NCBI GenBank assembly: GCA_963169875.1
Contig: CAUJEL010000070.1
Location: 1-35,084 of the forward strand
Origin: Candidatus Zhuqueibacterota bacterium
Lineage (GTDB): Bacteria > Zhuqueibacterota > Zhuqueibacteria > Residuimicrobiales > Residuimicrobiaceae
Direction: 5' to 3'
DNA: 35,084 nt
In this document: piece after piece, positions 1,999 through 33,746 of the stretch
How positions within the stretch are numbered: the first letter of the stretch is position 1
How the letters are laid out: each line of letters begins with the position of its first letter
The notes under the pieces: generated by a model
What the model was told of the DNA's origin: nothing
Database searches by the model: none
Seen by the model: the letters and a program-made list of their open reading frames with translations, nothing else
Program-made: the position numbers and the translations under genes

Positions 1999-4900
1999 AT
2001 GCTGATGAAATTTCCAGGTAAAATTGACTCAATTTATCACACCTGTTTAACAACGATACTCTTTATTCTGAGCCTGATGGGTCTCATCTGTCCATCAATC
2101 ACGTCCGGACAGAACATTCGCTTCAGGGATGTGACACAGGAAAAAAAGGTGCCTGGCTGGGTGTCCAAAGGAGTCAGTATTTTGGGGCATGGGGCCTTCT
2201 GGACGGATATTTCCGGAGATTCTTTACCGGATCTGTACATCTCCAGTGCGGTGCGCGAAGCCTACGGAAAAGTGCCCGAGACATTGTACATCAGCCATGC
2301 CGATGCGGCCTATACTGAAGAGGATGGTGCACGCGGTGTGTCCGATTCATATGGCATGACTGGTTCTCATGGCGTTCTTTTCGCGGATTATGATAATGAT
2401 GGCGATCTTGATTTTTTCAACGCCACCACGGATGATCGTACTCGCCTGTATCGCAACAAAGGTAACGGTACTTTTGAAGACTATTCCAATGCGGCCAATC
2501 TCAAGGGTCCCCGCGTCACCTATCCCACCTATGGTGAAATTGGTCTGGGGACGCGTGGCATCGTCGCCTTTGACGCCGATAATGATGGCGATCTGGATCT
2601 CTATGCCACAAATTGGGGGCCGGTTGAAGATAAAAATTTAAAAGCCTGGGAAACGCCGCCGCAGCCAAATGAATTTTACATCAATAATGGGGATGGAACC
2701 TTCACTCTGTCCCAGGACCGCGGCTGCACCCCTGTCAATCCCAGCAATGAAGGCACCCAGGGCGTGACCGCGGTGGATGTGGATGAAGATGGCGACATGG
2801 ATCTCTTTGTGTGCCATCGCAATTATGCCTTTTTGGGCAATGACGAGTTGGGAAATCCCATCTTTGGCGCAGGCGCAACACCAACCCCCAATGACCTGTT
2901 CATCAACGATGGCACCGGCCATTTCACCGAAGCCAATGCGCGCGAGCGCGGCCTGCACAGCGATTCCAATGATATCAATGGCACCACTTTTGCCGATTAC
3001 GATAACGATGGCGACCTCGATGCCTTTGTGGTTCATACTGAGGAAGTAAAACAGTATGTCCGCCTCTATCGCAATAAAGGCAATGGATTTTTTACCAGAA
3101 CCGGCGTCACGGCACAGATCAAGCAATGGGGGTTCACCTGTTTTGTCTTCGATATCGATAACGATGCTGATCTGGATGTGGTCAGTCTGTCGACGCGCGA
3201 TTTTGGCCGCGTCTATCTCAACGATGGCGCTGGCAATTATACCGAACAAAGCGGAACCGGCATGGAGATTCCGGTGTATGACCCGCGCGGCGGATCCATC
3301 GCGGACATGGAAGGAGATGGCGATCTCGATCTCTATTTTGTCGATGCCAACAAGGATACCAATGCCGCCTACAGCAATCGCTTGTTCCGTAATGATACAC
3401 CCAATTCCAACAATTGGCTTAAAATTTGGGGCAGCGGCCCCAAAGGCGATTTGGGCGCCTTTGGAACCAAGATTTGGCTCTATGAAAAAGGTGGCATGGA
3501 GGATACGTCCCAATTGGTGGGGTACAAACAGATCACCAATGCCTATGGTTATCTGGCCCAGGATGACCTGGTGCAGCATTTCGGTTTGGGCACGCGCGAT
3601 TCCGTCGACGTCAAGATTAAAATGCTGGATGGAACCGTGCTCAAAACAAGTCTGAAGGCTAAAACCCGGTTCTATTTCTCCAGGCCCAACACGATCACCC
3701 TTTTGTCCGGTGATAACCAGACGGGACAGGCGGGCGCCAGGTTGACCAATCCTCTGCAAGTCCTAGTCACGGATGCCAAAGGAAAAGCTGTCCAGGGAGC
3801 GGCCGTTCAATTTGCGGCGGTCAGCGGCGGCGGCCGTTTTGCGCAGGCACAGCCCGTATACACCGATGCCAGAGGCATCGCCAGTGCCCATTATATTGTC
3901 GGCAATCTCGCCGGCGCGCAGCAGGTGACCGCGACATTGTCCGGGGTGACCGATGGCACCGTCACTTTTGTCATAACCGGTGTCAATCCTGGTCCAGCTG
4001 TCATCGAATTGGTGAGCGGTTCGGGCCAATTCGCTTTTGCCGGGCAAGTACTGGCTGATTCAATCCGTGTGCGCGTGTCCAACAGCATCGGTGCTCCACA
4101 ATCGGATCATATAGTGCATTTTGAAATTTTGACCGGAAACGGCAAGATCAAACCAGGTGATAACCTCGTCGCTGATATCCCGACCAATTCACGTGGTATG
4201 GCCTCTGTGGCATGGCAGTTGGGACCCGTTGCAGGTACTCCTCAGGCCATGCGCATCACCTCGGAGGCCAATGACACACCTCTGGCAGGTTCACCCATCG
4301 ATATCGCAGCCACTGCTCTGGAACGACCGATTGTGGCAGGACCTCCGGCAGATTTGCTTTATTTGAGTGGTGACCGACAAAGCAGTGGTGTCAATCAACT
4401 GCTGCCTGCTCCCTTTGTTGTCCAGTTGGTTGACAGTATTGGAGAACCTTGCGAGAACTATGATATCTTGTTTGAGGTCGTTTTGGGCACAGGCACCATG
4501 GATGGAGCTACCCAAAAAATAATCAAGACCGATGTGGATGGAAAGGCTTTCATTCAATTTTTGAATGGCAAAAAAGCGGGTGTGGATAATAACCGGGTTC
4601 GCGCCCGCTACGCGCCCATCACCAGGGAAGTTTATTTCGCGGCCTCAGCAGTCGCTGATATACCCGCCACTCTGACCAAAATAGATGGAGATAATCAATT
4701 CGGCGCGCAGCTGCAGACGCTGCCTAAACCGCTGCGCGTCAAGATCACCGACACATATGGCAACGCCATTCCAGCGCACCCTGTGACTTTTGCCATGACG
4801 AGCAGCGATGGCTGGGTCAATAACGTGAAAACCACTACAGTGAGTACCGATTCCAGCGGCCATGCAGCAGTTTTGTTCAAATTAGGCGAATTGCCGGGTG

Positions 4901-7900
4901 TTTATCAGGTGTCCGCAAGTTCCCAGTATGGCAATATGGCCCTGGCGGGATCCCCTCTGTCTTTCATGGCCACGGCCGTTTCGAAACCCGCGATTCTACA
5001 GCTCGCATCCGTGGACAGCATCTCGGGATTGGCCGGTCAACGCCTGGCAATACCCCTGCGCGTACGGGTCACCGACAAGGCTGGCTATGCGGTGGCCAAC
5101 CACCCTGTGACCTTTCTGGTACGCCGCGGCGGTGGCAGTTTCGATAATCAGCCGGAAGTTCTGAAATTGACCGATCAAAACGGTGTGGTGAGCGTGACCC
5201 CCACGTTGGGCCAGGCCATCGGCAAATATAACAACGTCTTTGAAGCGCAGTCATATCAGGAAGCGGGGCAACCTCTGACCAGTTCTCCCATCCGGTTTTA
5301 CGTCACCGCAAAAAAGAGTCTGGCTGCAAAAATGTACCGGGCGGGCGGTCAGGATCTCAGCGGCCAGGCCGGAGAGTTCCTGACCCAGCCTCTTGCCGTT
5401 CGCATTGTTGATAATCTGGAACAGTCCGTCCCGGGCCAGGACGTGCTGTTTGAAGTCAGCAAAGGCAGCGGCCTGCTGGGCGTTGGCCAAACAGCAAAAG
5501 TCATTGTGCAGAGTAACAGCAGCGGGGTTGCCCAGATTGCGTACCGGCTGGGAAACGAAATCGGCGCCAACAGTCAGACGGTCCGGGCCAGCGCCAATGA
5601 CGGGGTGGATATTCTGCTGAACTCTCCGATACTTTTCACCGCCAGCACGCCGTATGGTCAACCTGATTCAACGGTGTCAAGGGTAACCGCCACAACGCCT
5701 GTGGCAGCCGACGGTGTTTCTGAAAGCCAGATCGCCATCGAGGTGAAAGACAGCGCTGGGCATCCCGTGCCCGGAGAATGGATCGCTTTCCTGGTGAGCG
5801 GGGATGGTAATAGCATCACACCGCCTGAAATGCCGACAGATGCGCAGGGCCGAGCGAGTGCCATTTTGCGATCGACGGTCGCCGGAAAAAAGCAATGCCG
5901 CATCTATTTGACCGACAAAAAAATCTATCTACAGCAGAAACCGCAAATCGAGTTTGTCGCGGGAAATGCACACAAATTAGTCACGGTCTCCGGCGATTAT
6001 CAAAGCGGCATCATTAATTCAGCATTGGAGAAGCCGCTGTTGCTGCGTGCGGAAGATTTCTATGGCAATCCGGTGCCGAATAGCGTTCTTTATGTTGAAA
6101 TACCATCCGGCAACGGTGCGGTGATTCCACCGATGGACCTCTCCACCAACGATCAAGGGATCGCGCAACTTACCTGGATTCTCGGCGCCAAAGCAGGCCA
6201 ACAGCAGATTCTCGCCCGCGTTGCCGGGACCAGTGTGACGCGCACATTAACCGCTACGGCTGCGCTGCCCAGCAAAATTAATCTATTGCGTTATGCGGGC
6301 GAGGGGCAATTTGCAGTGCCAGGTGGCATTTTTGGCGATTCCTTGACCGTGAAAGTGGTGGATGCCACGGGAGCGGCTATTTCCGGTGTGGATGTAACTT
6401 TTGCCATTATGCAGGGGAGTGCTCAAGTGAGCGCTGCGTCCGCGGTGCGCAGCGATCAATTCGGGTTGGCGCGAACCCGCCTTTCAGCCGGTTACACCAT
6501 CGGCGCTGTCAAGATACGCGCCATGGTTCAGGCGGATATATATGTGGATTTCAACGCGGCAGTGTCCACCTCGGTCCCTGAACGTCTGACGATGATTTAT
6601 GGTGACAGTCTGCGCGACCGTGTCGCCATGACAATTTATCCGTTAACGGTTAAAGTGAGCGATTTTTTTTCCAATCCGGTGGCTAATGTCCCCGTCACAT
6701 TTACAACCAATGATGTAGGAACGACCGTGTTGGATGACCAGCCCATGTACACGGATAATGAGGGCCTGGTATCTGCGCGCGTTCGTCTTGGCACTTCAGT
6801 GGGTCCTGTGACCGTCCTGGCGCGTAACAATAATCTGCAGGGATCGCCGCTCGTATTCAATTTGTTCGCGGATGCGGGAACTCCTCAGAACCTCGTGATA
6901 TTTGACGGCGATCAACAATCAGCGCGCGCGATGAGTCCTTTGTCCAATCCGATCAGGACGAAGGTGATTGATCAATACGGCAACGGCGTCCCCAATCAAG
7001 TGGTGGAATTCAGCGTGCGTGCCGGTGGGGGACAGGTCTATCCCATCGTGCTGCTGACGGATATAACCGGTGTCGCGGCATCGCGCTGGACCCTGGGCAT
7101 GGATGGGACGCAGGAGGTGGCGGTAAAATGCACTGCTCTTCCGGGCATCCAGCGAATAATCACCGCACAGTTGATTCCGAATCTGGCGCCTGTCATTCGT
7201 TGCATTTCGGACACGACCATCAGCGAGACACACACCCTGGTGTTTGATGTGGAAGCTGTTGATCCCGACGGTGGTGAAGCCACTGTTCAAGCCACCAATC
7301 TGCCTGCAGGTGCCACTTTCGATGCGCTCAACAGCAGGTTATTCGTGTGGCGGCCCGATTATAAACAGCAGGGTAACTATACAGTCACCTTTAGCGCCAA
7401 GGACAACAATGGCGGGGAAACGCAAAAACCGGTCACCATTCGCGTCAAGAATTTAAACCGCCCGCCGGCCATTTATGCGTTTCAACCGGAGTCCTTCTAT
7501 CTGCTGGCTCCCACTTTCAAGCCTTGCACTTTTTGGGTGAAAGCAATCGATCAGGACAGTGATTTATTGCAGTACAGCTGGCGTTTGAATGGCAGACTCA
7601 TCGGGCAGAAAGATTCTGTGACCATTTTTACCGGCACTACGTTGCCCGCGGCATTCACGCTGGTCGCAACAGTCAGGGATCTGGCTGATTCAGTGACTCA
7701 GGAGTGGTCGGTGCAGCAGGCGACCGCTGTTGCTGAAAGGGAAATGCTGCCGCAGCATAGCAAGTTGGAGCAGAATTATCCCAATCCGTTTAATCCGGAG
7801 ACGACGATCCGCTATGAACTGGCAAAGGCGCAAAACATCGAAATGAAATTATACAATATGTCCGGACAGTTGGTGAGAACGCTGTACAGCGGTTTTGCCA

Positions 7901-8031
7901 AACCGGGCTATCATCAACAGCGCTGGGATGGCAGAGGCGACAACGGGGACTTGCTACCGTCCGGTGTGTATCAGTGTTTGTTGTCGGGAGAGACCGTCAG
8001 ACAGTCGATCAAACTTGTCTTTTTAAAGTAA
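1999..8031 (+). CDS. Giant T9SS-exported CRTAC1-like propeller/Ig protein 1
   Basis: A 2010-aa surface or secreted protein of unknown function. A signal peptide ends near residue 36 (...LICPSITSGQ). Residues about 40-470 form a seven-bladed FG-GAP/VCBS propeller: one degenerate loop (DISGDSLPD), then DYDNDGDLD, DADNDGDLD, DVDEDGDMD, DYDNDGDLD, DIDNDADLD and DMEGDGDLD calcium loops. Residues 471-560 are a UnbV/ASPIC domain (GPKGDLGAFGTKIW...VQHFGLG). Residues 564-1726 hold about eleven Ig-like Big-1-type repeats averaging 106 aa, each with a VxDxxGNxV core and a TDxxGxA strand. Residues 1727 to about 1920 are a He_PIG-like (LPAGATFD...WRPDYKQQGNYTV) plus a second Ig-like domain. Residues 1924-2010 are the T9SS tail (NYPNPFNPETTI). 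Probably co-transcribed with the next gene, 30 bp downstream. Adhesion or matrix binding is inferred from architecture; no enzymatic motif was seen. Confidence 0.9.
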   Translation: MLMKFPGKIDSIYHTCLTTILFILSLMGLICPSITSGQNIRFRDVTQEKKVPGWVSKGVSILGHGAFWTDISGDSLPDLYISSAVREAYGKVPETLYISHADAAYTEEDGARGVSDSYGMTGSHGVLFADYDNDGDLDFFNATTDDRTRLYRNKGNGTFEDYSNAANLKGPRVTYPTYGEIGLGTRGIVAFDADNDGDLDLYATNWGPVEDKNLKAWETPPQPNEFYINNGDGTFTLSQDRGCTPVNPSNEGTQGVTAVDVDEDGDMDLFVCHRNYAFLGNDELGNPIFGAGATPTPNDLFINDGTGHFTEANARERGLHSDSNDINGTTFADYDNDGDLDAFVVHTEEVKQYVRLYRNKGNGFFTRTGVTAQIKQWGFTCFVFDIDNDADLDVVSLSTRDFGRVYLNDGAGNYTEQSGTGMEIPVYDPRGGSIADMEGDGDLDLYFVDANKDTNAAYSNRLFRNDTPNSNNWLKIWGSGPKGDLGAFGTKIWLYEKGGMEDTSQLVGYKQITNAYGYLAQDDLVQHFGLGTRDSVDVKIKMLDGTVLKTSLKAKTRFYFSRPNTITLLSGDNQTGQAGARLTNPLQVLVTDAKGKAVQGAAVQFAAVSGGGRFAQAQPVYTDARGIASAHYIVGNLAGAQQVTATLSGVTDGTVTFVITGVNPGPAVIELVSGSGQFAFAGQVLADSIRVRVSNSIGAPQSDHIVHFEILTGNGKIKPGDNLVADIPTNSRGMASVAWQLGPVAGTPQAMRITSEANDTPLAGSPIDIAATALERPIVAGPPADLLYLSGDRQSSGVNQLLPAPFVVQLVDSIGEPCENYDILFEVVLGTGTMDGATQKIIKTDVDGKAFIQFLNGKKAGVDNNRVRARYAPITREVYFAASAVADIPATLTKIDGDNQFGAQLQTLPKPLRVKITDTYGNAIPAHPVTFAMTSSDGWVNNVKTTTVSTDSSGHAAVLFKLGELPGVYQVSASSQYGNMALAGSPLSFMATAVSKPAILQLASVDSISGLAGQRLAIPLRVRVTDKAGYAVANHPVTFLVRRGGGSFDNQPEVLKLTDQNGVVSVTPTLGQAIGKYNNVFEAQSYQEAGQPLTSSPIRFYVTAKKSLAAKMYRAGGQDLSGQAGEFLTQPLAVRIVDNLEQSVPGQDVLFEVSKGSGLLGVGQTAKVIVQSNSSGVAQIAYRLGNEIGANSQTVRASANDGVDILLNSPILFTASTPYGQPDSTVSRVTATTPVAADGVSESQIAIEVKDSAGHPVPGEWIAFLVSGDGNSITPPEMPTDAQGRASAILRSTVAGKKQCRIYLTDKKIYLQQKPQIEFVAGNAHKLVTVSGDYQSGIINSALEKPLLLRAEDFYGNPVPNSVLYVEIPSGNGAVIPPMDLSTNDQGIAQLTWILGAKAGQQQILARVAGTSVTRTLTATAALPSKINLLRYAGEGQFAVPGGIFGDSLTVKVVDATGAAISGVDVTFAIMQGSAQVSAASAVRSDQFGLARTRLSAGYTIGAVKIRAMVQADIYVDFNAAVSTSVPERLTMIYGDSLRDRVAMTIYPLTVKVSDFFSNPVANVPVTFTTNDVGTTVLDDQPMYTDNEGLVSARVRLGTSVGPVTVLARNNNLQGSPLVFNLFADAGTPQNLVIFDGDQQSARAMSPLSNPIRTKVIDQYGNGVPNQVVEFSVRAGGGQVYPIVLLTDITGVAASRWTLGMDGTQEVAVKCTALPGIQRIITAQLIPNLAPVIRCISDTTISETHTLVFDVEAVDPDGGEATVQATNLPAGATFDALNSRLFVWRPDYKQQGNYTVTFSAKDNNGGETQKPVTIRVKNLNRPPAIYAFQPESFYLLAPTFKPCTFWVKAIDQDSDLLQYSWRLNGRLIGQKDSVTIFTGTTLPAAFTLVATVRDLADSVTQEWSVQQATAVAEREMLPQHSKLEQNYPNPFNPETTIRYELAKAQNIEMKLYNMSGQLVRTLYSGFAKPGYHQQRWDGRGDNGDLLPSGVYQCLLSGETVRQSIKLVFLK

Positions 8032-8061
8032 ACAGTTCATCATTTTAAAATGGGTGAGGTT

Positions 8062-11000
8062 ATGTTGAAGTTACGAGCAGCTTTAGTCGCATTGATGCTG
8101 GTGGGTTTGTGGCAGTTGGTGGCAGCACAGCCTAACCATACTCGGCCTATTTTTACAGCAGATTTGCAGAGTTCGCCTACTGCCATTGGTACCGTTTGGG
8201 AGACAGCGGGAAACTACTCTTCAGCCGGATGGACCGCCAAAGCGGGTGGGCAGATGAAGATCATGTTGAACGATTGGATGCCGTTCGAGGGCACCTTGAG
8301 CGTCGACGTTAAAGGCATGAGCGGCACCGTGGTGGGCGATGACTGGATTCCATTCTCGGTATGGTCACGGGGCCATGGGAAATTCCGCATTGATGCGGTG
8401 AAATATCCCAACGACGGGAGTTTCCTGTTTGCAAAGACCGATCCCAGCAAGGTGTCCGGCAGTTCACTGGGTTTTAAGCTTTTTTCCAAACCTATCTATG
8501 ATCCGGTCAATTTCAATTCTGCACAATATGATCCGATTTCCATGAGCGCTGCGGAAACTTACACCTTGAAATTTGTATGGACCCCCGGCAAATCATATTT
8601 TCAGGTTTTTCTGAAAAGAACCGGGCAAAAAATTGCCGAGACTTCAACAAATTTTGTCAATCAATCGGAAGCCTTTCTCTTCATATTTTTAGGAAAGAGT
8701 AACGAATATTCCAGTATGGCCGGAGTGACCTATAGTAATTTAACCTTATTGGGTCCACTGAGAGACATGACCTTTTTGGATGTCAGCCGGTCGTCCGGAG
8801 CAGTCAAGGATACGACACTGGAAGCACTCAGTGTGGCTTGGGCCGATGTCAATATGGATGGTAAGGAAGATATCTATGTGTCGTATTACAACAAACCCAA
8901 CAAGTATTTTGTCTCTGCGCCCGGCAGCAATACGTTCACCGAAACAGCCGCTGCGTCCGGTCTGGATGATTCGGGCGGCTCTTTTTCGACAATTTTTGCT
9001 GATTTTTCCGGCGATGGCAAAATAGACGCTTTTGTCGGCGACTATGGCACGCCGAGCCGGTTATTGATCAATAAAGGCAATGACCTATTCGAAAATGAAG
9101 CCGGAAGCCGCAACATTAGCACCACAAACGGAAAAGTAGTCAATCCCCTGGCGATTGATGTTGAAAACGATGGCGACATTGACATATTTGTCGCCAATAA
9201 CAGTGCAGCACATGAACTCTATGTCAATAACGGCAGCGGCGTGTTCACACGCATTGAATTGTCCAGCCTGCCCATCGGCGAAGGTCCGCGCGCCGCTGCA
9301 GGCGATGTAAACAATGACGGCTATGTCGATATCTTTTATGGCCGTCGCAACGCGCCCGCGGTATTGTTGATCAACAACAAAACCGGCGGTTTTGAAGATA
9401 AGGCGTCGAGCAGTGGTTTGGCCATCACTACGGATCCCGGTGCCCCAACCCTGGCTGACCTTGATAACGATAACGATCTCGATCTGGTTTTTCCCTGGGC
9501 ACCTCCAAGCAGCTCGGATTCGGTCAAAATATATATCTACCGGAATTCGGGTGGCTCTTTCACGCAGGTGCCCTTTGTCGATCCCTACAGCTTCTATACC
9601 TATGGTGTGGCGGTCGGTGATTACGACAATGACGGATTACAGGATATCTATGCAGCGCGACGCAACAAGGCGAGCGGTGGCCGCAGTAATTATGGCAGTC
9701 GTGTTTATCGTAACACCTCCACTTCTGGTGGCATCACGTTTGCCATCTATCCGGGAACGGGTGCAGAAGTCATCTATCAGGAATCCCGAGGCAGTGCAGC
9801 CGCCGACTATGACGGAGATGGAAAACTGGATATCTATACAGCAGCCAGGGGGGCTGTTGGCAGTAACAAACGCAATTTTGGACGCAACTTTTTACTGAAA
9901 AATACCTCTACCACCGGTAATAATTTTCTCCTGGTTAATGTATTGGACAAGAAAAAACTGCCGGGTCTGCTGGGGGCAAAGGTGGAGCTGTTCGATCAAA
10001 CCGGCGTCACGGGTAAATTGCTGGGTTTTCGTGAGATCAATTCCATTCAGGGATATCAGAGCCAACCGGGCCGGATGCTTCATTTTGGCATGGGGGGCAA
10101 CACGGCCGGCGTCCTCCGAGTGACGCTGCCGGACAAACGCGTCATCCTCAAAAATGTCAATGCCAATTCTCTGGCTACCGTCGATCCCTATGGCGCCGAT
10201 CCTGTGGCCATTGCCATGGTCAAAGGCAATAACCAGAGCGCGGCCTCCATGAATGCCGTCCCTGATTCGCTCATCGTACGGGTTTATTCGGGCGACCTCG
10301 CCATGCCGGCTCAATTCCAGCCATTGGAAGGCCAAAATGTTACCTTCAAGGTCAAGCCTGGGGGAGGCGGTAAACTGCTGCTTCCCAATGGTGCTGGTGG
10401 CTCACTGTCACTGGATTCAGCCAATGTGGCGACGGACGGTCAGGGACTGGCCCGGGTGAAATTCCAGGTGGGTCCCACCGCGGGCACGAGCAATAATGTG
10501 GTGGAGGTCTATTCCTACAATAAATCGGGTCAACTGCTGGCCAATTACCCGCTGCAGACGCCGGTGACGCGGAATCCGGTAACTTTTACGGCTTCAACGA
10601 CCGTTGGCCCGGCTGCTGATTTTAGCAAAACTGCAGGCGATTTTCAACAGGGCTACAGCGGCGACTTTTTAACGGATCAACTGGAAATCACGGTGACGGA
10701 TGTCGGCGGCAACCCGGTTTCCGGCGCAGGCGTAAATTTCTCGATTGCTTCCGGTAGTGGCACCCTGGGCGACCAGGGCGTCACGCAAGTAAAAGTGACG
10801 TCCCTTGCGTCTGGAAAAGCGGCCATCAAATGGCGCCTGGGCGCGGCCATCGGCACACAGACCGCCCAGGTGACAGTCGATGGTATCACCGGCAAAACCG
10901 CGACTTTTACCGCCACGGCGACAGCGCCGCTGCGGATTCTCAGCTACATATCCGGGGACAGCACCACAGGGACCGTCAATCAATCGGCCCAATATCCACT

Positions 11001-14895: not shown

Positions 14896-15019
14896 GTTCC
14901 ATGAGAATGGGCGGTCTAAAAAGTACGCAACATGGTATTTAACACTTGTGCATGCAGAATATGCCTGCTGCCAGGCCAGTGATGAGCAGCCACTAACTTG
15001 ATCACGCTATGATAGGCAG

Positions 15020-15077
15020 TGTTCGTAGTCCTGGCTACCACCGGTTGAAAAACTGTATAAGGGTGGAACTACGAACA
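15020..15077. repeat. Nested stem-loop element in the 14896-15261 gap
   Basis: TGTTCGTAGT (15020-15029) is exactly complementary to 15068-15077. Inside it, CCACC (15038-15042) pairs with GGTGG (15062-15066). Similar GTTCGTAGT...ACTACGAAC palindromes occur as dispersed intergenic repeats in several environmental bacterial genomes (from memory). No gene is visible in the 366-bp gap; the remainder holds the terminator at 15141-15180 and an AT-rich stretch (15218-15240) that probably contains the promoter for the next gene. Confidence 0.55.
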
Positions 15078-15140
15078 ATAGCGGAGCGGAAATTTGTACG
15101 ATCGCCCGTCCATCGATTCATAACTGACTTGCCAGTTTGT

Positions 15141-15180
15141 AAATTCGGGAGGGGCTATCGGCCCTCCCGAATTTATTTTT
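15141..15180 (+). terminator. Rho-independent terminator between the two array units
   Basis: A perfect 13-bp stem pairs 15141-15153 (AAATTCGGGAGGG) with 15162-15174, closed by an 8-nt loop and followed on the plus strand by a T-rich tail (ATTTATTTTT). It lies 245 bp after the stop of protein 2, so it separates the first two-gene unit from the second. Confidence 0.88.
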
Positions 15181-15256
15181 CGGCTGGCTTTAAAAAGTTT
15201 TCGGCATCTGTAGCAATTATTGGTATATTATATAGTTTTAGCCATTGAGGATCAAT

Positions 15257-15262
15257 AAAGGA
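15257..15262 (+). promoter_or_regulatory. Ribosome binding site that questions the start of protein 3
   Basis: AAAGGA at 15257-15262 abuts ATG 15262 but lies 8 nt before the in-frame ATG 15271. By spacing, 15271 is the better start, giving MRERKWFLQRMSLGSALF. An upstream GAGG (15247-15250) could serve ATG 15262 with 11 nt spacing. Confidence 0.5.
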
Positions 15263-18200
15263 TGTTGCGTATGCGTGAGCGTAAGTGGTTCTTGCAGCGG
15301 ATGAGTCTTGGCAGCGCTCTGTTCTTCATGTTGGGGGTCATGGTTGCACAGTCTCAGGAGATACAGTTTACCAATGCCACACAAACCTTTGGTGTCGCAG
15401 GCAATGTGGATGACACTACCGGCGCCTACTGTTACGGCCATGGCGTGGCCATGGCGGATATCAACAACGACAACAGGCCGGATATCTATATCAGCAATGC
15501 CGTGCGCTATGCCAACGGGCTCTGTGAAACCTTGTACATTACCATTCCCGGCGGGTATAAAGAGAATGATGCCGCCTGGAAGATATCCGATCCCTACGGG
15601 TGGACCGGTTCCCATGGCATCTGTTTCTTTGATTACGACAATGATGGCGATTTTGATCTCTATAATGCCACCACCGATGACCGCAGCCGCCTCTATCGCA
15701 ACAAAGGCAATGGCACTTACGAGAACGTGACGGATTTGGTTGGCTTGCCCCTGATTCGTGAATCCATGCCCGATTTTGATCCCGATCAACCATATGGCTA
15801 CGGCACCCGCGGTGTGGTGGCTTTTGATGCCAACAATGACGGCTGGATGGATCTCTATGGCACCAACTGGGGACCTGCGGAAAAACGCTATCCGCCCCCG
15901 GGAAAATCATTTGGAGATCCCATCATCACGCCGCCCCAACCCAATGAATTCTACCTCAACCAGGGCAACGGCAAATATACCCGGGTCACCAACAGCGGCG
16001 CCACCCCCATCAACCCCAGTTATTTGGGGACACAGGGCGTCGCGGTTTTTGATGCCAATGAAGACGGCAACATGGACATTTTTGTCGCCCATCGCAACTA
16101 TGTGGCCATTGATCCGGATACGAAGCAAATAGTGAAAGGACCCACCTCAAGAGCGATATACAATCAACTCTTCCTGGGGGATGGACAAGGTCACTTTACG
16201 GAAGGGGGCGGTAACGCCAACCTCAATGACGATGTGACCAATAACTGCAACGGCGCCAGCTTTGCGGACTATGATAATGATGGCGACTATGATGCTTTTA
16301 TCATTCCAACAAAAAAAACAGAAGGCCTTTCAGGATGGAAAGGTTATACACGGGTCTATAAAAATAATGGTCGTGGACAATTTACAAATGTGACCGCCCA
16401 GACTCGTATAACAATTTTTGGTTTTTCCGCCCTCTTCCTCGACGCGGATAACGATGGTGACCTGGATCTGGTCGGGCCACGGACCGGAGATAATATTTAC
16501 TTTTATCGTAATGATGGGAATGACATCTTTACCCGGGTTGACAACACCGGAACCTATTTAACCGCCGATGATCCACGCGGTGGTGGCGTCGGCGACATCG
16601 ATAACGATGGTGACCTTGATTTTTATTATGCCGACGCCAACAAGGATTTCATCACCACATCCCCGAAATATCCTGTGGTGGTGAGCAACCGCCTCTTCGT
16701 CAATAAAACCGTCACCAACAACCGCTGGCTCAAGATCACCGGCCGCGGCCCCAAAGGCGATGCCGCCGGCTTTGGCACCAAAATATGGGTCTATGAGCGC
16801 GGTTTCATGGACAGTCCAGCCCATCTGCTCGGATACCGCCAGGTCATTTCCCAATACGGCTATCTGTGCCAGGATGATCCGGTGCAGCATTTCGGCCTCG
16901 GGCAACGGGATTCTGTGGACATCAAAGTGCGCCTGCTGGACAAGACCGAGCTGTTCATGCTCAAAGTGCCGGCCAATCAGCGCATCAGTTTCAGCAAGCC
17001 GGCTCAATTCGTCATGGATAGCGGCAATAATCAACTCGGCAAACCCTCGGTGACGCTCGCCCTGCCCTTGCGTGTGCGTGTGTTTGATGCCTTTTCCAAG
17101 CCGGTGTATGGCGCTCCGGTTAATTTTAAGGCACTGGATGGTGGTTTTATTCAGGAAACCCAACCCATCTATACCGATGCTTCCGGCTACGCGGAAGTTC
17201 ATTATACGCCTGTCGCAGGTGTGGCGCAGCAGAGAATCCGCGCCGTTTGCCCCATTCTGCCCACACAAATATCCGAGTTTTCATGTTCCATTGCCAGTCC
17301 CGTCTATACGGTCAACATCCTGTCCGGGGAAGGCCAGTCGGGATATGTCAATGAAACATTGCCTTCCCCACTTGTCATTCGCGTCAACGACGCGTATGCC
17401 GCTCCGGTGAGCAAGGCGCAAGTGCGGTTCAAGGTGATCAGCGGCGGCGGCAAGGTGGCGGAAGCGGATTCCATCACCCTGGCGACCGGTCCAACGGGCC
17501 AAGCCTCGGTGTTCTGGCGCATGGGCAACGTGCCTGGCAGCAACCAGCGGGTACGGGTTTTTCTGATCGGCGACCGCACGCGCTATGCCGAATTCACGGC
17601 CACAACGTATGGGGCAGCTGCGGCCATGCAATCGTTGAGTCCGGTCTCTTTCGTCGGTGAGGCTGGAAAAGCATTACCGGATTCGCTGGTTTATCGTATC
17701 CTGGATGCCCAGAATCATGCAGTGCGCAACCATCCTGTCCGTTTCACGGTGACCGCAGGAAATGGCCTCATCAATGGCCAGAGTATGGTCACCCTCAACA
17801 GCGATCGCGATGGATTTGTCAAGGCTGAATGGATTCTGGGGCCCCAGGCTGGATTTTTTAATAACCGGCTGCAGGTCTATGCCGGCGTGCTGCAGGGATC
17901 ACCGCTGCAGGTCTCCGCTTCAGGGCAGCCCGGCGCCGCTGCGCGGCTTCTGGCGCTAAGCGGCTTGAATCAAAGCGCAGTTGCGGGAGGCAACCTGCCC
18001 GAACCGGTGGTGGTCGCTCTGCTGGACAGCCTGCAAAATCCGATTGCGAATGTGCAAATAAATGCCCTCATGGTGGCCCCCAATGGTCAGGAGACTTTAT
18101 TGAGCCCTGCCACGACCGACAGCAGCGGCCGCGCCTCTTTTCACTGGACGCTGACGGAGGTGGTGGGTGTACACCGGTTCATGGTGCGTTTTGGCGATTT

Positions 18201-19395
18201 GGACCCGGCCGAAATACGCGCTCAATCCATGGCACATGCGCCCATGTTCATTGAGATCGTCGATGGCGATGGCCAGCGCGCTTTGGTCAATAACCGTGTT
18301 GAAAAACCGTTACGCGTGCGCGTTATGGATGAGCGGCGGGCGCCCCTGTCCGCGATCCCTGTCCTTTTTCTCGATGTGAATGCCATGGGAACATTCCCGG
18401 ATGGCGCCACGGCGGTGACCAATAGTGCCGGGATCGCCAGTTGTATCTTCCAGTTTGGCGCTCATGCAGGCATCCACGAAGTGGAAGCAAAAACCGATGG
18501 GGTGGACGAGTCTGTCCTTTTCATTCTGACAGCAGATCCACGGCCCAATCATGTGCCGGTCATTTCGGCCCTCACCGATACCTCCCTCTTTGAACGGCAG
18601 CAACTGGAATTCACCGTCAACGCTGACGATGCGGATGAGGACAGTCTGCAGATATGGATGGAAGGGGTGCCGGACAGCGCCCGTTTTTCGCCAGAGACGC
18701 GCACCAATAACTGGACGCCCACCTACCAGCAGGCCGGTGAATATCAAATCATGGTCTGTGCACACGACATCATTGGAGAAGTGCAGAGACATCCCATCAC
18801 GATTCAGGTGCTGAATGTTAATCAGCCGCCGCAATTGCTCGCGTGGACGCCGGCTGACAGCATCGTCTGGACCGATGTCTTCCGTCCCTATGATTTCCTC
18901 GTTTCTGCGCACGATGGCGATGGGGATTCTTTAAAATATGCCTGGCTGCTGGATGGCGTCTATGTGGGCGCGGATTCCCTGGTGAGTCTGCTGCCCAATC
19001 CCTCCTGGACCATGCACATGGTGCTGAAAGTCAATGTATTTGATGCGGAATTCTCTGTGAGCCGCACCTGGCATATTTACCGCCAGACCGGCGCCGTCGG
19101 GGAAGCGGCGGTTGCCGCGGAATATGCGCTGTTGCAGAACCATCCCAATCCTTTCAATCCACAAACGACGATCACATTTTCCATGCCGAAAACCGATCGC
19201 GTCAGGATTTGGGTGTGCAATATTTCCGGCCAAACCGTGCGCCTCTTGAGCGATGCGATTGTCAGCAGCGGCCGTCACAGTATCACCTGGGATGGCCGCG
19301 ATGGGCGGGGAGAACTCTTGCCTTCGGGCTTGTATTACTATGGCATGGAGAGCGGCAGTTTTCGTGAAATTCGCAAATTATTATTTGTAAAATAA
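15262..19395 (+). CDS. Giant T9SS-exported CRTAC1-like propeller/Ig protein 3
   Basis: 1377 aa from ATG 15262; the ATG at 15271 has better ribosome binding site spacing and would remove three residues. A signal peptide ends near VAQSQE. The seven-bladed propeller (residues about 35-480) has loops ADINNDNRPD, DYDNDGDFD, DANNDGWMD, DANEDGNMD, DYDNDGDYD, DADNDGDLD and DIDNDGDLD. UnbV/ASPIC is at 486-577 (GRGPKGDAAGFGTKIW). There are only about five Big-1-like repeats (578-1096), then a He_PIG-like domain, an Ig-like domain (YAWLLDGVYVGADSL) and the T9SS tail at 1290-1377 (NHPNPFNPQTTI, with His replacing the usual Tyr). The propeller shares long motifs with proteins 1 and 4, such as NATTDDR, GTQGV and HRNY. 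It is the shortest paralogue and the first gene of the second unit, 20 bp before protein 4. Confidence 0.9.
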   Translation: MLRMRERKWFLQRMSLGSALFFMLGVMVAQSQEIQFTNATQTFGVAGNVDDTTGAYCYGHGVAMADINNDNRPDIYISNAVRYANGLCETLYITIPGGYKENDAAWKISDPYGWTGSHGICFFDYDNDGDFDLYNATTDDRSRLYRNKGNGTYENVTDLVGLPLIRESMPDFDPDQPYGYGTRGVVAFDANNDGWMDLYGTNWGPAEKRYPPPGKSFGDPIITPPQPNEFYLNQGNGKYTRVTNSGATPINPSYLGTQGVAVFDANEDGNMDIFVAHRNYVAIDPDTKQIVKGPTSRAIYNQLFLGDGQGHFTEGGGNANLNDDVTNNCNGASFADYDNDGDYDAFIIPTKKTEGLSGWKGYTRVYKNNGRGQFTNVTAQTRITIFGFSALFLDADNDGDLDLVGPRTGDNIYFYRNDGNDIFTRVDNTGTYLTADDPRGGGVGDIDNDGDLDFYYADANKDFITTSPKYPVVVSNRLFVNKTVTNNRWLKITGRGPKGDAAGFGTKIWVYERGFMDSPAHLLGYRQVISQYGYLCQDDPVQHFGLGQRDSVDIKVRLLDKTELFMLKVPANQRISFSKPAQFVMDSGNNQLGKPSVTLALPLRVRVFDAFSKPVYGAPVNFKALDGGFIQETQPIYTDASGYAEVHYTPVAGVAQQRIRAVCPILPTQISEFSCSIASPVYTVNILSGEGQSGYVNETLPSPLVIRVNDAYAAPVSKAQVRFKVISGGGKVAEADSITLATGPTGQASVFWRMGNVPGSNQRVRVFLIGDRTRYAEFTATTYGAAAAMQSLSPVSFVGEAGKALPDSLVYRILDAQNHAVRNHPVRFTVTAGNGLINGQSMVTLNSDRDGFVKAEWILGPQAGFFNNRLQVYAGVLQGSPLQVSASGQPGAAARLLALSGLNQSAVAGGNLPEPVVVALLDSLQNPIANVQINALMVAPNGQETLLSPATTDSSGRASFHWTLTEVVGVHRFMVRFGDLDPAEIRAQSMAHAPMFIEIVDGDGQRALVNNRVEKPLRVRVMDERRAPLSAIPVLFLDVNAMGTFPDGATAVTNSAGIASCIFQFGAHAGIHEVEAKTDGVDESVLFILTADPRPNHVPVISALTDTSLFERQQLEFTVNADDADEDSLQIWMEGVPDSARFSPETRTNNWTPTYQQAGEYQIMVCAHDIIGEVQRHPITIQVLNVNQPPQLLAWTPADSIVWTDVFRPYDFLVSAHDGDGDSLKYAWLLDGVYVGADSLVSLLPNPSWTMHMVLKVNVFDAEFSVSRTWHIYRQTGAVGEAAVAAEYALLQNHPNPFNPQTTITFSMPKTDRVRIWVCNISGQTVRLLSDAIVSSGRHSITWDGRDGRGELLPSGLYYYGMESGSFREIRKLLFVK

Positions 19396-19415
19396 TTGGA
19401 GAGGAATGTTTCGCT

Positions 19416-22400
19416 ATGAACAGGATGGGTGCGGTGAAGGAGTCGGGTTTCCTCAAAACAGGTTTATTGATCTTTTTTTGTCTTTTGGCCATGCGGCCCG
19501 TTCTCTGGGCTCAACAAATCAGTTTCACCAATGTCACCGATGCCATGAAGGCCTGGGGGTGGCGCGTCAAAGTCGATGATGTTTGGGTCAGTGCTTATGG
19601 GCATGGCGTCTGCTGGGGCGATGTAACCAATGATTCCATTCCCGATATGTACGTGGCCAGTGCCGTGCGCAGAGCCAATGGCCGGGTTCCAGAGACTCTG
19701 TACATTGGACAGCCCAATGGCGCCGCTTTTTCCGAAGAAGATGGCAAACGCGGCTGCTCGGATGATTATGGCATGACCGGCACGCATGGCATCTCACTTT
19801 TCGATTACGATAATGACGGCGATCTGGATATCTACAATGCCACCACCGACGACCGCAACCGGCTTTACCGCAATAATGGTGCGGGTTATTTCACAGATGT
19901 TTCAGATTCGGCCAATTTGAAAGCAATCCGCGTGCCGGTCGATACCTATGGCGAACTCGGTTATGGCACCCGCGGCGTGGTCGCTTTTGATGCGGATAAT
20001 GATGGTCATATGGATCTGCTGGGCGTCAATTGGGGGCCGGTCGAGAATGTCAAGGAGGTCCCCTGGATCACGCCTGCGCAACCGAATGAATTTTATCACA
20101 ACAACGGCAATGGCACTTTTAGCAAAGAGGATAATCGCGGACTGACACATCCGCCCAATCCCAGCAATATCGGTACGCAGGGCGTCACGGCCGCGGATGT
20201 CAACAACGATGGCTGGATGGATATTTTCATCTGCCACCGCAATTATGCCTTTGTCGGTGTGGATACTGCGGGGAGAGAGTTGTTCGGCCCTGGTCCCATT
20301 CCGGCGCCGAATCAACTGTTGATCAATGACGGCACCGGCCATTTTAAGGATGAGACCCGGGCGCGCGGTCTTTACGACGCGAGTAATGATTGCAATGGCG
20401 CCACCTTCGCCGATTACGATAATGATGGTGACCTTGATGCATTTGTGGTGCCCAAGGACATTACGGTAAAATATCTAAGCGTCTATGAAAACGATGGCCA
20501 TGGCTATTTTACCAACATCAGCAGTCGTGTCAAGGTCATTTTATACGGATTTTCTTGTGTGATGGGAGATTTGAATAATGACGGCTGGCTGGATATCTTT
20601 GCTTCCCTCTCCTATGGCAACTCCATCGTCTATCTCAATAATGGAACGAAAAATTTTAACCTCATATCCAATTCCGGCGTCGAGATTACGGCGTATGACC
20701 CCCGTGGTGCTGGGCTGGCCGATTACGATCTGGATGGTGATCTGGATGTCTACTATGTGGACGCTAATAAAGATCTGAAAAGCCGCTATTCTAATCGCCT
20801 GTTCCGCAACAATCTCTCAAAGGCCAATAACTGGCTTAAAGTGACCGGACGGGGTCCCAAGGGAGACGGCGGCGGATTCGGCACCAAAATCTGGCTCTTC
20901 GAATCCGGCCATATGGATGATATGAATTACCTGATCGGCTACCGTCAGGTGATGAATACCTATGGCTATCTCTGTCAGGATGACCCGGTGCAGCATTTCG
21001 GTCTTGGTTCGAAGACCCTGGTCGATGTCAAGGTTCGTTTCCTCGACGGCACAGAGCTCAAGATGGCAAATGTGGCTTCGAACCGCAAGGTGATTTTCAC
21101 GCGGCCCTATCAATTTATTAAAATAGGTGGAGACAATCAACTGGGCCAGGCAAATGCGCCGCTGCCGCAACCCCTGCGCGTCAGAGTGGTCAATGCCCAG
21201 GGACAGCCTGTTCGAGGCGCCCAGGTGCGCTTTGCCAACAAAATTGGCGATGGCAGCTTCCTGCCGGCCGATTCTGTTTTCACAGGATCGGATGGCATCG
21301 CCGCCATCACCTACGTTGTGGCGCCGGTTCTGCAGACGCAGGAAATCGTCGCCACCTGTCCGGACTTTCCGGGCGAGATATTTTTCACCGTAACCAACAC
21401 CAATCCGGCCCTGGCAAAAATTGCTCGTGCTTCCAGCTCGAATCTGACCGGATCCGCGGGACAACTCCTGCCCTCGCTGCTGCAGGCAGAAATAACCGAT
21501 ATGGCTGGTAATGCCCTGGATCATGTCCCCGTGGTTTTCAAGGTGACCCGCGGCGGCGGCAAAGTCGCAGAGGCCGATTCGGTCATGGTGCTCAGCAACG
21601 AACAGGGCGTGGCCAGCACCGCCTGGCGGCTGGGCGCCCAACCTGGAACCGCCCAACAAGTTAAAGCTTATCTGAGTTTTTCTTCCAATGAATATGTACT
21701 GTATGACGCCGTGACGGTCGGCCTGGCGAACCAGCTGATCTGGCAAAGCCAGACCAGTTATAATGCAATTGTCGGTAAGGCGCTGCCGGAGTCACTGACC
21801 GCAAAAATTGTCGATACCGCAGGGCTCCCGGTCAGTAATTATCCGGTCGTTTTTAGCATTGTGGCGGGTGACGGTTCCGTCAATGGCGTGAATGAGGTTC
21901 AGGTGTTGAGCAACAATGATGGACTCGTGCGCTGTCAATGGCGCATGGGCCCTGTCGCAGGGATTTTGAATCAGCTGCGGGTCGCTGCTGGATCAGTGGA
22001 CGGCTCGCCAGTCGAGGTGACGGCTGTGGCGTCAGCGGATCACGCCCACCGTCTCGCAAAAGTGAGTGGAGATGGACAAAGCATCCCCGCATTGCGAGAT
22101 TTTGCCAGCTCTTTGATTGTTGCCGTGACGGACACCTTTGCCAATCCGGTGGCCGGCCAACCTGTACGTTTCGAGGTGGTGCAGGGCAGCGCCACCATCA
22201 ATAACGCCGCTGTCGTGACGCTGCACACAGATGCTGCGGGACAAGCCGGTGTGTCCATGAAAGCCGGAGCCGTACCTGGTCCGGTTTCTGTAAAAGTCAC
22301 AGCGCTGTTCAATGGCCAGGAATTATACGATTCGCCGCAGTATTTTAACGCTACTGTGCTCCCCATGCCGTTGGATACGGCAAAGGGGACGATCGCTGCG

Positions 22401-24434
22401 TCCTCACCTTGTGTCGCCAATGGCCGCGAAGAGAGCACCATCACCATTCAAGCGCGTGATGCCATCAACGCGGCTGTTTCCGGTGTCCGTGTACAATTCC
22501 ATGCGACGGGTTCGAATAACACATTTCGCCCGGCGACTGTGGTAACCGATGCACAGGGGCATGCGTCCATTAAATTGATTTCCACGCGGGCGGAAAAGAA
22601 AACGATCTGGGCTGAAGTGAATGGCCAGCCGGTGAGCAGTGACTCCGCGGAGGTTGTTTTCTTGCCGGGGCCTGCCGCTTCACTGGCACAAATTGATGGA
22701 GATGGCCAGACGGGTTATGTGGGCAAAATGCTGCCAATGCCCATTCGCGTGGCGTTGACGGACAGCTTTGAAAACCCGATCACCGGGGCGCCGTTATCGG
22801 TCATCATGCAAACGCCGGATGGCAGAAGAATCGATCTGGAACGGCAGGTTACAAACGGCGCAGGACTCATTGAATATCGCTGTTTTTTGAGTCAGCAACC
22901 CGGGCAACATCATTATATCGTGGGTTATGGCACGCTGCCTGCCGTAACGTTCACGGCGGAAGCCCAGAACATTATTCCAGCCTTCCTGGAAAAAATCAGT
23001 GGTGAAGGCCAGGTGGGACTGGCCAATAAAGTGCTGACAAATCCCCTCGTGGTACGCGTGGTGGACAAGGAGGGTTCGGCCATCGCGGGCATTCCGGTCA
23101 CTTTTACGTTCAGTACGGGGTCAGGGGTATTTCCTGAAGGGGCTGCAGTCACAACCGGCACCGATGGCAAGGCGGCTCTGCTGGTGCAATTAGGAGACCA
23201 GATCGGCGATTATTATATCGATGCTGCGGTCGCGGGATTGGCAGATAAGGTAAGCTTTCTGGCAACAGTCCGTCCGCCGCGGCCTTCGCGGCTGGAAATA
23301 ATATCCGGTGATGCGCAGCGCGCGCGGCCTGGTGAATTCCTCCCCCAACCTCTTGTTGTTCGCGTGATCGATGAACTGCTGCAACCTGTTGACCGCACAG
23401 AAGTGCGCTTTGTCCCTGTTGCCGGCGGCGGATCGGTCATGCCGTCTGTCCCCGTGATGACGGGAAGCGATGGAGCAGCCTCGGTTGCCTGGGCGCTTGG
23501 CTCGGAAAATATTCAACGCTTGCGCGCAGAGGTGGTTGAACATACCCATGTTCAGGCCTTTTTCAGTGCAAATTTGCATGGCAACTATGCGCCGCTTTTA
23601 TATTGTACCTCTGACACCACCCTGTCTGAAAATCAACCGCTGTCATTCAGCGTCTTCGCCACGGATCAGGATGATGACATGATCACGCTGAGCGCCCTCG
23701 ATCTGCCGGACGGAGCTGCATTCGATTCTTTATCCGGAATTTTTACATGGACCCCGACCTATGAGCAGGCCGGACTGTACCGGATCGCTTTTATCGCCCG
23801 GGACGGTTATGGTGGAGAAACGGTCAAGGCATGTAAAATCGTCGTGAAAAATGTGGCACAACCTATTGTCATCTTATCCTACTCACCCAGCGATACTGCT
23901 TTGACGTGGGAGATGTTCACGCCCATCACGTTTGAAGTGCAAGCCCTGCATCCTGATGGCGATTCGCTGCGTTTTCAATGGCACTTTAACAATCTCGCCG
24001 TCGGCACACAATCCAGTCTGCGGGTTACACCGAATCCGACTTTTCCGCAAAAGAGTCTTGTCAGCGTCAAGTTGTTCACCCCTGAGAGCAGCACGACGTT
24101 ATCGTGGTCTCTGTCCCTGATTGCTACCGATGTAGACGTTTATCATAACAGACCAGAAAGTTTTGTGTTATCACAAAATTATCCCAATCCATTCAATCCG
24201 TCCACGCACATCCCCTTTCAGATGGCTGCGGCCGGGGAGGTGCGTCTGGCCATATTCAATCAAGCGGGGCAGATGGTGCGGATTCTGACGGATGGCATGG
24301 TGACAGCGGGTTGGCATGAAGTGATCTGGGATGGGTGTGATATGAACGGCGCGCAAGTGCCCTCCGGCACGTATTACTGCCGTATGGTAACTAATTCATT
24401 CCAGGAAATAAAAAAGCTTTTATTGTTGAAATAA
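19416..24434 (+). CDS. Giant T9SS-exported CRTAC1-like propeller/Ig protein 4
   Basis: 1672 aa. ATG 19416 follows GGAGAGGA (19398-19405) at 10 nt. A hydrophobic export signal spans residues about 10-30 (LLIFFCLLAMRPVLWAQ). The seven-bladed propeller (about 35-465) has loops GDVTNDSIPD, DYDNDGDLD, DADNDGHMD, DVNNDGWMD, DYDNDGDLD, DLNNDGWLD and DYDLDGDLD. UnbV/ASPIC is at 471-562. About eight Big-1-like repeats fill 563-1389, followed by a He_PIG-like domain (LPDGAAFDS...WTPTYEQAG), an Ig-like domain and the T9SS tail at 1585-1672 (NYPNPFNPSTHI). The propeller resembles protein 1 most closely by eye. It is separated from protein 3 by 20 bp and followed by a strong terminator. Ligand and partner are unknown; calcium-stabilised adhesin is the best guess. 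Confidence 0.9.
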   Translation: MNRMGAVKESGFLKTGLLIFFCLLAMRPVLWAQQISFTNVTDAMKAWGWRVKVDDVWVSAYGHGVCWGDVTNDSIPDMYVASAVRRANGRVPETLYIGQPNGAAFSEEDGKRGCSDDYGMTGTHGISLFDYDNDGDLDIYNATTDDRNRLYRNNGAGYFTDVSDSANLKAIRVPVDTYGELGYGTRGVVAFDADNDGHMDLLGVNWGPVENVKEVPWITPAQPNEFYHNNGNGTFSKEDNRGLTHPPNPSNIGTQGVTAADVNNDGWMDIFICHRNYAFVGVDTAGRELFGPGPIPAPNQLLINDGTGHFKDETRARGLYDASNDCNGATFADYDNDGDLDAFVVPKDITVKYLSVYENDGHGYFTNISSRVKVILYGFSCVMGDLNNDGWLDIFASLSYGNSIVYLNNGTKNFNLISNSGVEITAYDPRGAGLADYDLDGDLDVYYVDANKDLKSRYSNRLFRNNLSKANNWLKVTGRGPKGDGGGFGTKIWLFESGHMDDMNYLIGYRQVMNTYGYLCQDDPVQHFGLGSKTLVDVKVRFLDGTELKMANVASNRKVIFTRPYQFIKIGGDNQLGQANAPLPQPLRVRVVNAQGQPVRGAQVRFANKIGDGSFLPADSVFTGSDGIAAITYVVAPVLQTQEIVATCPDFPGEIFFTVTNTNPALAKIARASSSNLTGSAGQLLPSLLQAEITDMAGNALDHVPVVFKVTRGGGKVAEADSVMVLSNEQGVASTAWRLGAQPGTAQQVKAYLSFSSNEYVLYDAVTVGLANQLIWQSQTSYNAIVGKALPESLTAKIVDTAGLPVSNYPVVFSIVAGDGSVNGVNEVQVLSNNDGLVRCQWRMGPVAGILNQLRVAAGSVDGSPVEVTAVASADHAHRLAKVSGDGQSIPALRDFASSLIVAVTDTFANPVAGQPVRFEVVQGSATINNAAVVTLHTDAAGQAGVSMKAGAVPGPVSVKVTALFNGQELYDSPQYFNATVLPMPLDTAKGTIAASSPCVANGREESTITIQARDAINAAVSGVRVQFHATGSNNTFRPATVVTDAQGHASIKLISTRAEKKTIWAEVNGQPVSSDSAEVVFLPGPAASLAQIDGDGQTGYVGKMLPMPIRVALTDSFENPITGAPLSVIMQTPDGRRIDLERQVTNGAGLIEYRCFLSQQPGQHHYIVGYGTLPAVTFTAEAQNIIPAFLEKISGEGQVGLANKVLTNPLVVRVVDKEGSAIAGIPVTFTFSTGSGVFPEGAAVTTGTDGKAALLVQLGDQIGDYYIDAAVAGLADKVSFLATVRPPRPSRLEIISGDAQRARPGEFLPQPLVVRVIDELLQPVDRTEVRFVPVAGGGSVMPSVPVMTGSDGAASVAWALGSENIQRLRAEVVEHTHVQAFFSANLHGNYAPLLYCTSDTTLSENQPLSFSVFATDQDDDMITLSALDLPDGAAFDSLSGIFTWTPTYEQAGLYRIAFIARDGYGGETVKACKIVVKNVAQPIVILSYSPSDTALTWEMFTPITFEVQALHPDGDSLRFQWHFNNLAVGTQSSLRVTPNPTFPQKSLVSVKLFTPESSTTLSWSLSLIATDVDVYHNRPESFVLSQNYPNPFNPSTHIPFQMAAAGEVRLAIFNQAGQMVRILTDGMVTAGWHEVIWDGCDMNGAQVPSGTYYCRMVTNSFQEIKKLLLLK

Positions 24435-24504: not shown

Positions 24505-24544
24505 AGCGGTGAGAAGAACTGGGTCTCTTCTCACCGCTTTTTTT
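24505..24544 (+). terminator. Rho-independent terminator closing the paralogue array
   Basis: A perfect 13-bp stem pairs AGCGGTGAGAAGA (24505-24517) with 24526-24538 across an 8-nt loop and is followed by seven T residues. It lies 70 bp after the stop of protein 4 and isolates the array from the UbiA-family gene. Confidence 0.93.
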
Positions 24545-24601
24545 AATTCAGAGACAGAATTGACAGATTCGCAAGCAGAACATGGCCGGTTTGTGGAGGT
24601 T

Positions 24602-24608
24602 GGGAGGA
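24602..24608 (+). promoter_or_regulatory. Ribosome binding site deciding start at 24618
   Basis: GGGAGGA lies 9 nt before ATG 24618 and only 3 nt before GTG 24612, which favours 24618. It is downstream of ATG 24582, so that start is unlikely. A perfect -35-like TTGACA sits at 24560-24565 but no convincing -10 follows it. Confidence 0.6.
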
Positions 24609-24617
24609 AACGTGGGT

Positions 24618-25487: not shown

Positions 25488-25534
25488 CCATCTTTCGAGT
25501 GCGAATAGTCAGGCATAAACAGCGACCATCTTGT

Positions 25535-25539
25535 GGAGG
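25535..25539 (+). promoter_or_regulatory. Ribosome binding site supporting a TTG start
   Basis: GGAGG lies 4 nt before TTG 25544. That start places the hydrophobic segment and lipobox at the N-terminus; the longer frame from 25439 would add 35 unrelated residues and overlap the UbiA gene. Confidence 0.6.
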
Positions 25540-25543
25540 CTCT

Positions 25544-27802: not shown

Positions 27803-27803
27803 T

Positions 27804-27810
27804 GGAAGGA
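27804..27810 (+). promoter_or_regulatory. Ribosome binding site supporting GTG start at 27817
   Basis: GGAAGGA ends 6 nt before GTG 27817. ATG 27802, which overlaps the previous stop, has no such site, and ATG 27826 is 15 nt away. Confidence 0.5.
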
Positions 27811-27816
27811 CCCGGG

Positions 27817-31404: not shown

Positions 31405-31431
31405 ATTTTATCCCAAGTTTGTTCCAGTTAT

Positions 31432-31460: not shown

Positions 31461-31572
31461 GTTAGTGTCATGAATAAAGAACAAGGGCTTATTTGAATTC
31501 CAACTCATTTTTAAGATTTTCAGTGGGTTGTGTATCACCGAATTCCTGGTGGTTAATAATGCAAGTCAGGAT

Positions 31573-33721: not shown

Positions 33722-33746
33722 AACACTCCGGACAGGCCTGTCATTT

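Follow-up and report, generated by a model that had tools for sequence, protein, structure and literature searches.

Four long genes follow one another on the forward strand of the stretch of DNA presented above (the window: 35,084 nucleotides, one whole contig, C70, of a 5.0 Mb genome in 215 contigs from an uncultured bacterium), and the question that they raise is whether they form a single array of like genes or hold a smaller unit, and what such a unit might do at the cell surface. The preliminary description had them as four consecutive same-strand genes of one architecture; the open reading frames and their common strand have been confirmed (Table 1), whereas the single architecture does not hold, in that gene 2 carries an additional N-terminal domain and the number of Ig repeats differs between genes. 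The genes are spaced as two pairs, with 18 bp between genes 1 and 2, 20 bp between genes 3 and 4, and 366 bp separating the pairs; a promoter and terminator scan of the 366-bp gap 3' of gene 2 found no terminator and nothing clearly above chance. A perfect inverted repeat lies in this gap (15140-15175, 14-bp arms) and another in the gap after gene 4 (24505-24538, 13-bp arms), each with an 8-nt spacer. A repeat-driven assembly artefact is unlikely, since DNA tandem repeats are absent from the window. A recent tandem duplication into four was also rejected, because the heads of the four genes are 29-58% identical (50-58% among the type-A heads of genes 1, 3 and 4, and 29-32% between these and the gene 2 head) and because in genome G052 orthologues of all four stand in an identical order, next to the phosphoribosyltransferase and TPR genes.

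Table 1. Features of the locus, with positions in the window.
Feature	Position	Strand	Description
Gene 1 (P0001, 'partner' of B)	1999..8031	+	2010 aa; signal peptide, type-A propeller, UnbV, 11 Ig repeats, He_PIG/Ig, T9SS tail; in other genomes an orthologous rod lies immediately 5' of B
Gene 1 head	2110..3639	+	Seven-loop FG-GAP propeller and UnbV/ASPIC (Pfam, loop alignment, head tree)
Gene 1 rod	3697..7185	+	11 Ig (Big_1-like) repeats; span 1163 aa (repeat HMM)
Gene 1 canonical invasin-type Big_1	5698..5973	+	7th of 11 repeats; best Pfam Big_1/Invasin_D3 stretch (repeat HMM)
Gene 1 T9SS type-A sorting tail/FlgD_ig	7777..8028	+	TIGR04183, 24.9 bits (cut-off 23)
Gene 2 (P0002, 'B')	8050..14895	+	2281 aa (2277 aa from second Met); signal peptide, N-terminal beta domain, propeller, UnbV, 11 Ig repeats, Ig modules, Fn3-like module, T9SS tail
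Gene 2 N-terminal domain	8125..8754	+	~210 aa, lineage-specific (A2 profile)
Gene 2 head	8761..10173	+	Propeller and UnbV/ASPIC (Pfam; AlphaFold pLDDT ~90 in this part; 9etn)
Gene 2 rod	10213..13776	+	11 Ig repeats; 8th (about 12616-12873) is the canonical invasin-type Big_1
Gene 2 T9SS sorting tail	14641..14892	+	TIGR04183, 30.0 bits (cut-off 23)
Gene 3 (P0003, type A)	15262..19395	+	1377 aa; propeller, UnbV, 5 Ig repeats, He_PIG/Ig, T9SS-like tail
Gene 4 (P0004, type A)	19416..24434	+	1672 aa; propeller, UnbV, 8 Ig repeats, He_PIG/Ig, T9SS tail
UbiA-family polyprenyl-phosphate phosphoribosyltransferase	24582..25487	+	One copy in 19/22 genomes of the order
TPR lipoprotein	25439..27802	+	Orthologue single copy in 19/22 genomes of the order

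The head of each protein is matched in Pfam by FG-GAP_3 (1e-33 to 1e-37) and, after the propeller, by UnbV_ASPIC (PF07593), which lies above its cut-off in 4/4 genes (8e-6 to 1e-10). Seven DxDxDG-type loops had been counted in each gene; seven Asp loops can be aligned per head, some of them degenerate (e.g. DISGDSLPD, DVTNDSIPD), but the strict pattern Dx[DN]xDG occurs only 4, 4, 6 and 6 times in genes 1-4. The conservation of these loops suggests that the heads may bind calcium. An AlphaFold model of the gene 4 head with its first Ig repeat (pLDDT 87.9, pTM 0.91) has a strand list that we read as seven four-strand blades, which agrees with the seven-bladed propeller first proposed. The top PDB match of the gene 2 and gene 4 heads is mouse CRTAC1 (9etn; E 1.1e-28 and 1.6e-27, respectively), in both cases well ahead of the runner-up, and these alignments (TM ~0.73-0.74 on the target, ~20% identity) are long enough to cover both the propeller and UnbV/ASPIC. 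Elsewhere in the phylum, two or three UnbV/ASPIC domains can share one open frame (G044:C269, G075:C301, G076:C18).

The N-terminal domain of gene 2, as defined by the A2 profile, is present in 21/22 genomes of the order and in 25/82 of the phylum, the matches in the four phylum genomes outside the order being weak. Pfam and PDB sequence searches gave nothing substantial for this domain, and a resemblance to GH16 (E 0.015, in 2/10 members) makes it possibly a ConA/GH16-like jelly roll; AlphaFold did not resolve it, because a single sequence was the input. Proteins of about 330-610 aa without a propeller carry this domain as well; examples in the same genome (333-510 aa) lie at L203 5097-6629, L204 7189-8553 and L205 7316-8317.

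Below the heads, Big_1 (PF02369) is matched in all four genes (Pfam, 4e-26 to 1e-74), and the repeat numbers in Table 1 come from an iterated repeat HMM. A canonical invasin-type Big_1 is found in gene 4 as the 5th of 8 repeats, and the gene 3 rod has none; He_PIG/Big_9/PKD modules follow near the C-terminus of each of genes 1-4 (Pfam). Intimin models match parts of the rods only, far below cut-off, and Pfam and NCBIfam scans of genes 1-4 found no N-terminal outer-membrane beta-barrel of the intimin/invasin (type V) kind. T9SS tails also occur on two other giant proteins that have no propeller, one with 16 Ig repeats (L019 170-8167) and one with at least 10 (L017 1703-6010).

The length of these rods is constant in two of the four genes. 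Exactly 11 repeats have been found in 14/14 complete B proteins and in 9/9 headed partners, while other members of the family in the same order have 2 to 14 (2-12 in the type-A genes). The Ig span has a mean of 1161.5 aa and a standard deviation of 2.4 in the partner (eight orthologous rods, with ~36-66% rod identity), and a mean of 1169.6 aa and a standard deviation of 7.6 in B. Moreover, a given repeat best matches the repeat at the same position in 273/308 comparisons among partners and 543/605 among B proteins (89-90%), as opposed to 117/968 (12%) when partner is compared with B. This constancy of span, together with the position-specific identity of the repeats, indicates that neither protein has gained, lost or homogenised repeats. 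The two rods are out of register, with the canonical Big_1 at repeat 7 in the partner and repeat 8 in B, and their equal repeat number may therefore be coincidence. What is new at this locus is narrower than the array: a fixed eleven-repeat rod in two adjacent genes, one of which has exchangeable heads.

The evidence for exchange comes from comparing the trees of heads and rods, which were quick maximum-likelihood searches carrying SH-aLRT rather than bootstrap support, the membership of the partner group having been settled once a first head tree had been seen. Ten partner rods group together as a single clade (support 100), as do the 14 B rods, again with full support. The partner heads fall in three clades, being type A in family f1, B-derived in f4 and C116-like in f3; forcing eight of them into one clade costs 404 log units (AU p = 1.6e-68), and head monophyly is rejected for each pair of families (AU p 3e-44, 3e-13 and 3e-47). 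Orthology of the gene 1 heads between families is accordingly ruled out by the head trees, and the reverse grouping, in which the f4 partners join B, is rejected by the rod data (p 1.8e-7). Because family relationships are reflected in the rod trees, the part that has moved is the head and not the rod. In two genomes (G050 and G034) the partner is headless and starts at repeat 5, after what seems to be a signal peptide of the partner's own. Replacement of the partner head has thus happened two or more times, and two genomes have lost it.

Export by the type IX secretion system (T9SS) is supported by the tails: besides genes 1 and 2, gene 4 scores over the TIGR04183 cut-off of 23 (26.4 bits), while gene 3 falls under it (17.9 bits), and FlgD_ig/Por_Secre_tail is matched in all four (Pfam). 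The same genome encodes the T9SS core proteins SprA (863 bits, in frame) and PorU (887 bits) and has dozens of T9SS-type tails. In other bacteria, T9SS cargo is known to be attached to surface glycan. The fusion of CRTAC1-like propeller, UnbV, Ig rod and T9SS tail claimed for all four genes has thus been borne out by Pfam, with the exception that the gene 3 tail is below the TIGR04183 threshold. The proposal that this fusion had not been described as a system is upheld, in that no paper describing the propeller/UnbV, Ig rod and T9SS fusion was found in the literature searched. As for the same domain order in relatives, a profile of the UnbV-Ig junction gave spanning matches through most of the order, in family f6, where there is one Ig repeat, and to some extent in f8, but elsewhere in the phylum the matches listed cover the UnbV and Ig parts separately. 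Among 80 named relatives, only the one belonging to the same order has Ig repeats in the propeller frame, and that same genome is the only one of 30 named genomes of many phyla with a spanning junction match. In this sample, which is not a census, the fusion is confined to this order and two sister families.

The unit that recurs across the order is not the array of four, as first described, but B, often with the partner just upstream, clustered with the phosphoribosyltransferase and TPR lipoprotein genes. B is found in most genomes of the order. In addition to G052, the partner-B pair recurs in G034, G038, G045, G046, G048, G050 and G051, with 0-2 further type-A genes, and B occurs without an upstream partner in part of family f3 (G036, G042, G044), so that B does not need the partner everywhere. 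Both the phosphoribosyltransferase and the TPR gene lie within the cluster in G000, G052, G046, G045, G037 and G038. G034, G036 and G042 have the phosphoribosyltransferase beside B, with the TPR orthologue either at another place or not found; G047 and G048 have the TPR gene, but not the phosphoribosyltransferase, next to B; and in G049, G050 and G051 the two are together at a place other than that of B. The true start of the TPR lipoprotein is probably inside the listed ORF. The phosphoribosyltransferase scores 258.9 bits with NCBIfam NF008977, against an equivalog cut-off of 234, and matches a solved enzyme (PDB 8j8j) with E 2.9e-42. In other bacteria, polyprenyl-phosphate phosphoribosyltransferase starts the addition of ribofuranose, arabinofuranose or xylofuranose to surface glycans (PMC11127046). 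Our guess from gene position is that the enzyme modifies or anchors the stalks.

Further genes flank this cluster in the window. Upstream is a GH18 with a T9SS tail (270-1619), and downstream a DUF4838-like protein just under the Pfam cut-off (27802-29877), distant relatives of which are near the cluster in G045, G042 and G053; G045 and G042 also have a neighbour that, from its gene start, looks like DUF362. On the reverse strand (30328-34826) a transaldolase, a PAP2 phosphatase, an MttB-like methyltransferase homologue and a type 2 isopentenyl-diphosphate isomerase lie in a row, and this order is partly preserved in G052.

The constant rods of B and partner, together with a partner head that is swapped or lost, suggest fixed-length surface stalks with exchangeable tips, and surface stalks with a replaceable tip are the best reading of genes 1-4, one that we hold with somewhat better than even confidence. 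The four products would be secreted by the type IX system to the cell surface, and the C-terminal tail would be removed as each protein is attached there. The CRTAC1-type Ca-loop propeller and UnbV, being N-terminal, would form the distal end, with the rod of Ig repeats below. The core would be B, in several families with the partner just upstream; the rods of both, with 11 repeats and two or three C-terminal modules, may reach roughly 50-60 nm if each module measures ~4 nm, and, being of the same fixed size, would probably rise next to each other to an equal height, possibly as a pair. Of the two parts, the rod would be the constrained one and the head an exchangeable tip that may bind a ligand. 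Genes 3 and 4 would be additional type-A copies, shorter in the rod, whose insertion separated B from the phosphoribosyltransferase and TPR genes. The adhesin of the preliminary description, with a binding propeller and a distance-setting rod, is plausible on these sequences, though it has to be amended for a rod that is exactly conserved and a head that can be replaced or absent. A more specific version, in which genes 1 and 2 make a two-part appendage of fixed height with a plug-in tip (the rod intact and the CRTAC1-type heads swapped or dropped), borne on or decorated by a pentofuranose glycan whose lipid donor the neighbouring phosphoribosyltransferase would provide, is in our view distinctly improbable as a whole; the pentofuranosyl-lipid enzyme may be linked to a glycan that carries or decorates the stalks.

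One alternative is carbohydrate capture, in which the N-terminal beta domain and the propeller bind polysaccharide for nearby secreted glycosidases and the rods only space the heads from the cell. The GH18 and DUF4838-like genes mentioned above, the weak GH16 resemblance of the N-terminal domain, and the presence of sugar-active or lectin propellers further down the structural match lists (2z8r for gene 4, 6rfz for gene 2) are in its favour; however, the GH18 is not kept beside the cluster in G052, G046 or G045, type-A heads lack the N-terminal domain, and some rods persist headless, and we regard this role as unlikely. The persistence of headless partners counts in favour of a second alternative, a structural coat, where B and partner build a layer, or a field of spikes, of constant height on the surface, whose main function lies in rod-rod contacts and in which the heads are accessory. 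Exact repeat number, position-specific repeat identity and the occurrence of B in most of the order would also fit such a coat, while the retention of heads on 14/14 complete B proteins and the absence of any known surface-layer domain in Pfam speak against it, and we give it little credence. An ordinary variable adhesin family, tandem-duplicated and without a fixed unit, is very unlikely overall; it would stand for genes 3 and 4, the type-A genes differing both in repeat count and in copy number (0-2 extra), but is contradicted for genes 1 and 2 by the lack of repeat turnover in B and partner across three or more families.

Stalks with replaceable tips would be of wider interest in two respects. 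Large surface proteins built of Ig repeats are generally regarded as variable in length. In this natural case the rod has kept both its length and the identity of each of its repeats from family to family, while the tip has been exchanged; the role of the rod apart from the tip can therefore be tested directly with natural variants that have or lack the head. In addition, T9SS-exported stalks are a new context for the bacterial CRTAC1 family, which is widespread and functionally obscure.

Each part of these proteins has a counterpart in a known system. As T9SS type-A cargo (TIGR04183/PF18962), they have a Sec signal and a C-terminal sorting domain in a genome with SprA and PorU, and differ in their head-and-rod order, for which no published cargo was found in the literature searched. 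With CRTAC1 and proteins annotated as 'CRTAC1 family protein' they share the seven-bladed Asp-loop propeller and ASPIC/UnbV, 9etn being the best structural match, whereas the solved CRTAC1 chain (551 residues) has neither Ig rod nor T9SS tail. FG-GAP/UnbV has also been found fused to ice-binding domains (PMC9957290), where propeller and UnbV likewise serve as a module beside another exported domain; that domain is a different one, and an Ig rod is not listed. The gene at 24582-25487 belongs to the same enzyme family as the polyprenyl phosphoribose synthase of three-component pentofuranose systems (PMC11127046; Rv3806c, 8j8j), and here it is gene position that ties it to the stalks. The rods of intimin/invasin and other inverse autotransporters (Big_1, PF02369) resemble those of genes 1, 2 and 4 in the one canonical Big_1 that each of these has, the other repeats being Big_1-like; unlike intimin and invasin, the stalk genes have no outer-membrane barrel, place the head N-terminally and the T9SS tail C-terminally, and carry an unrelated binding domain. 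Lastly, giant Ig-repeat proteins of the BAP type are likewise large surface proteins of 80-110-aa Ig-like modules, and A. baumannii BAP is described as highly polymorphic (PMC4647330). Genes 3 and 4 do vary in repeat number between families, but in B and its partner, as opposed to the BAP type so described, the number of repeats is fixed and the identity of each is kept across families.
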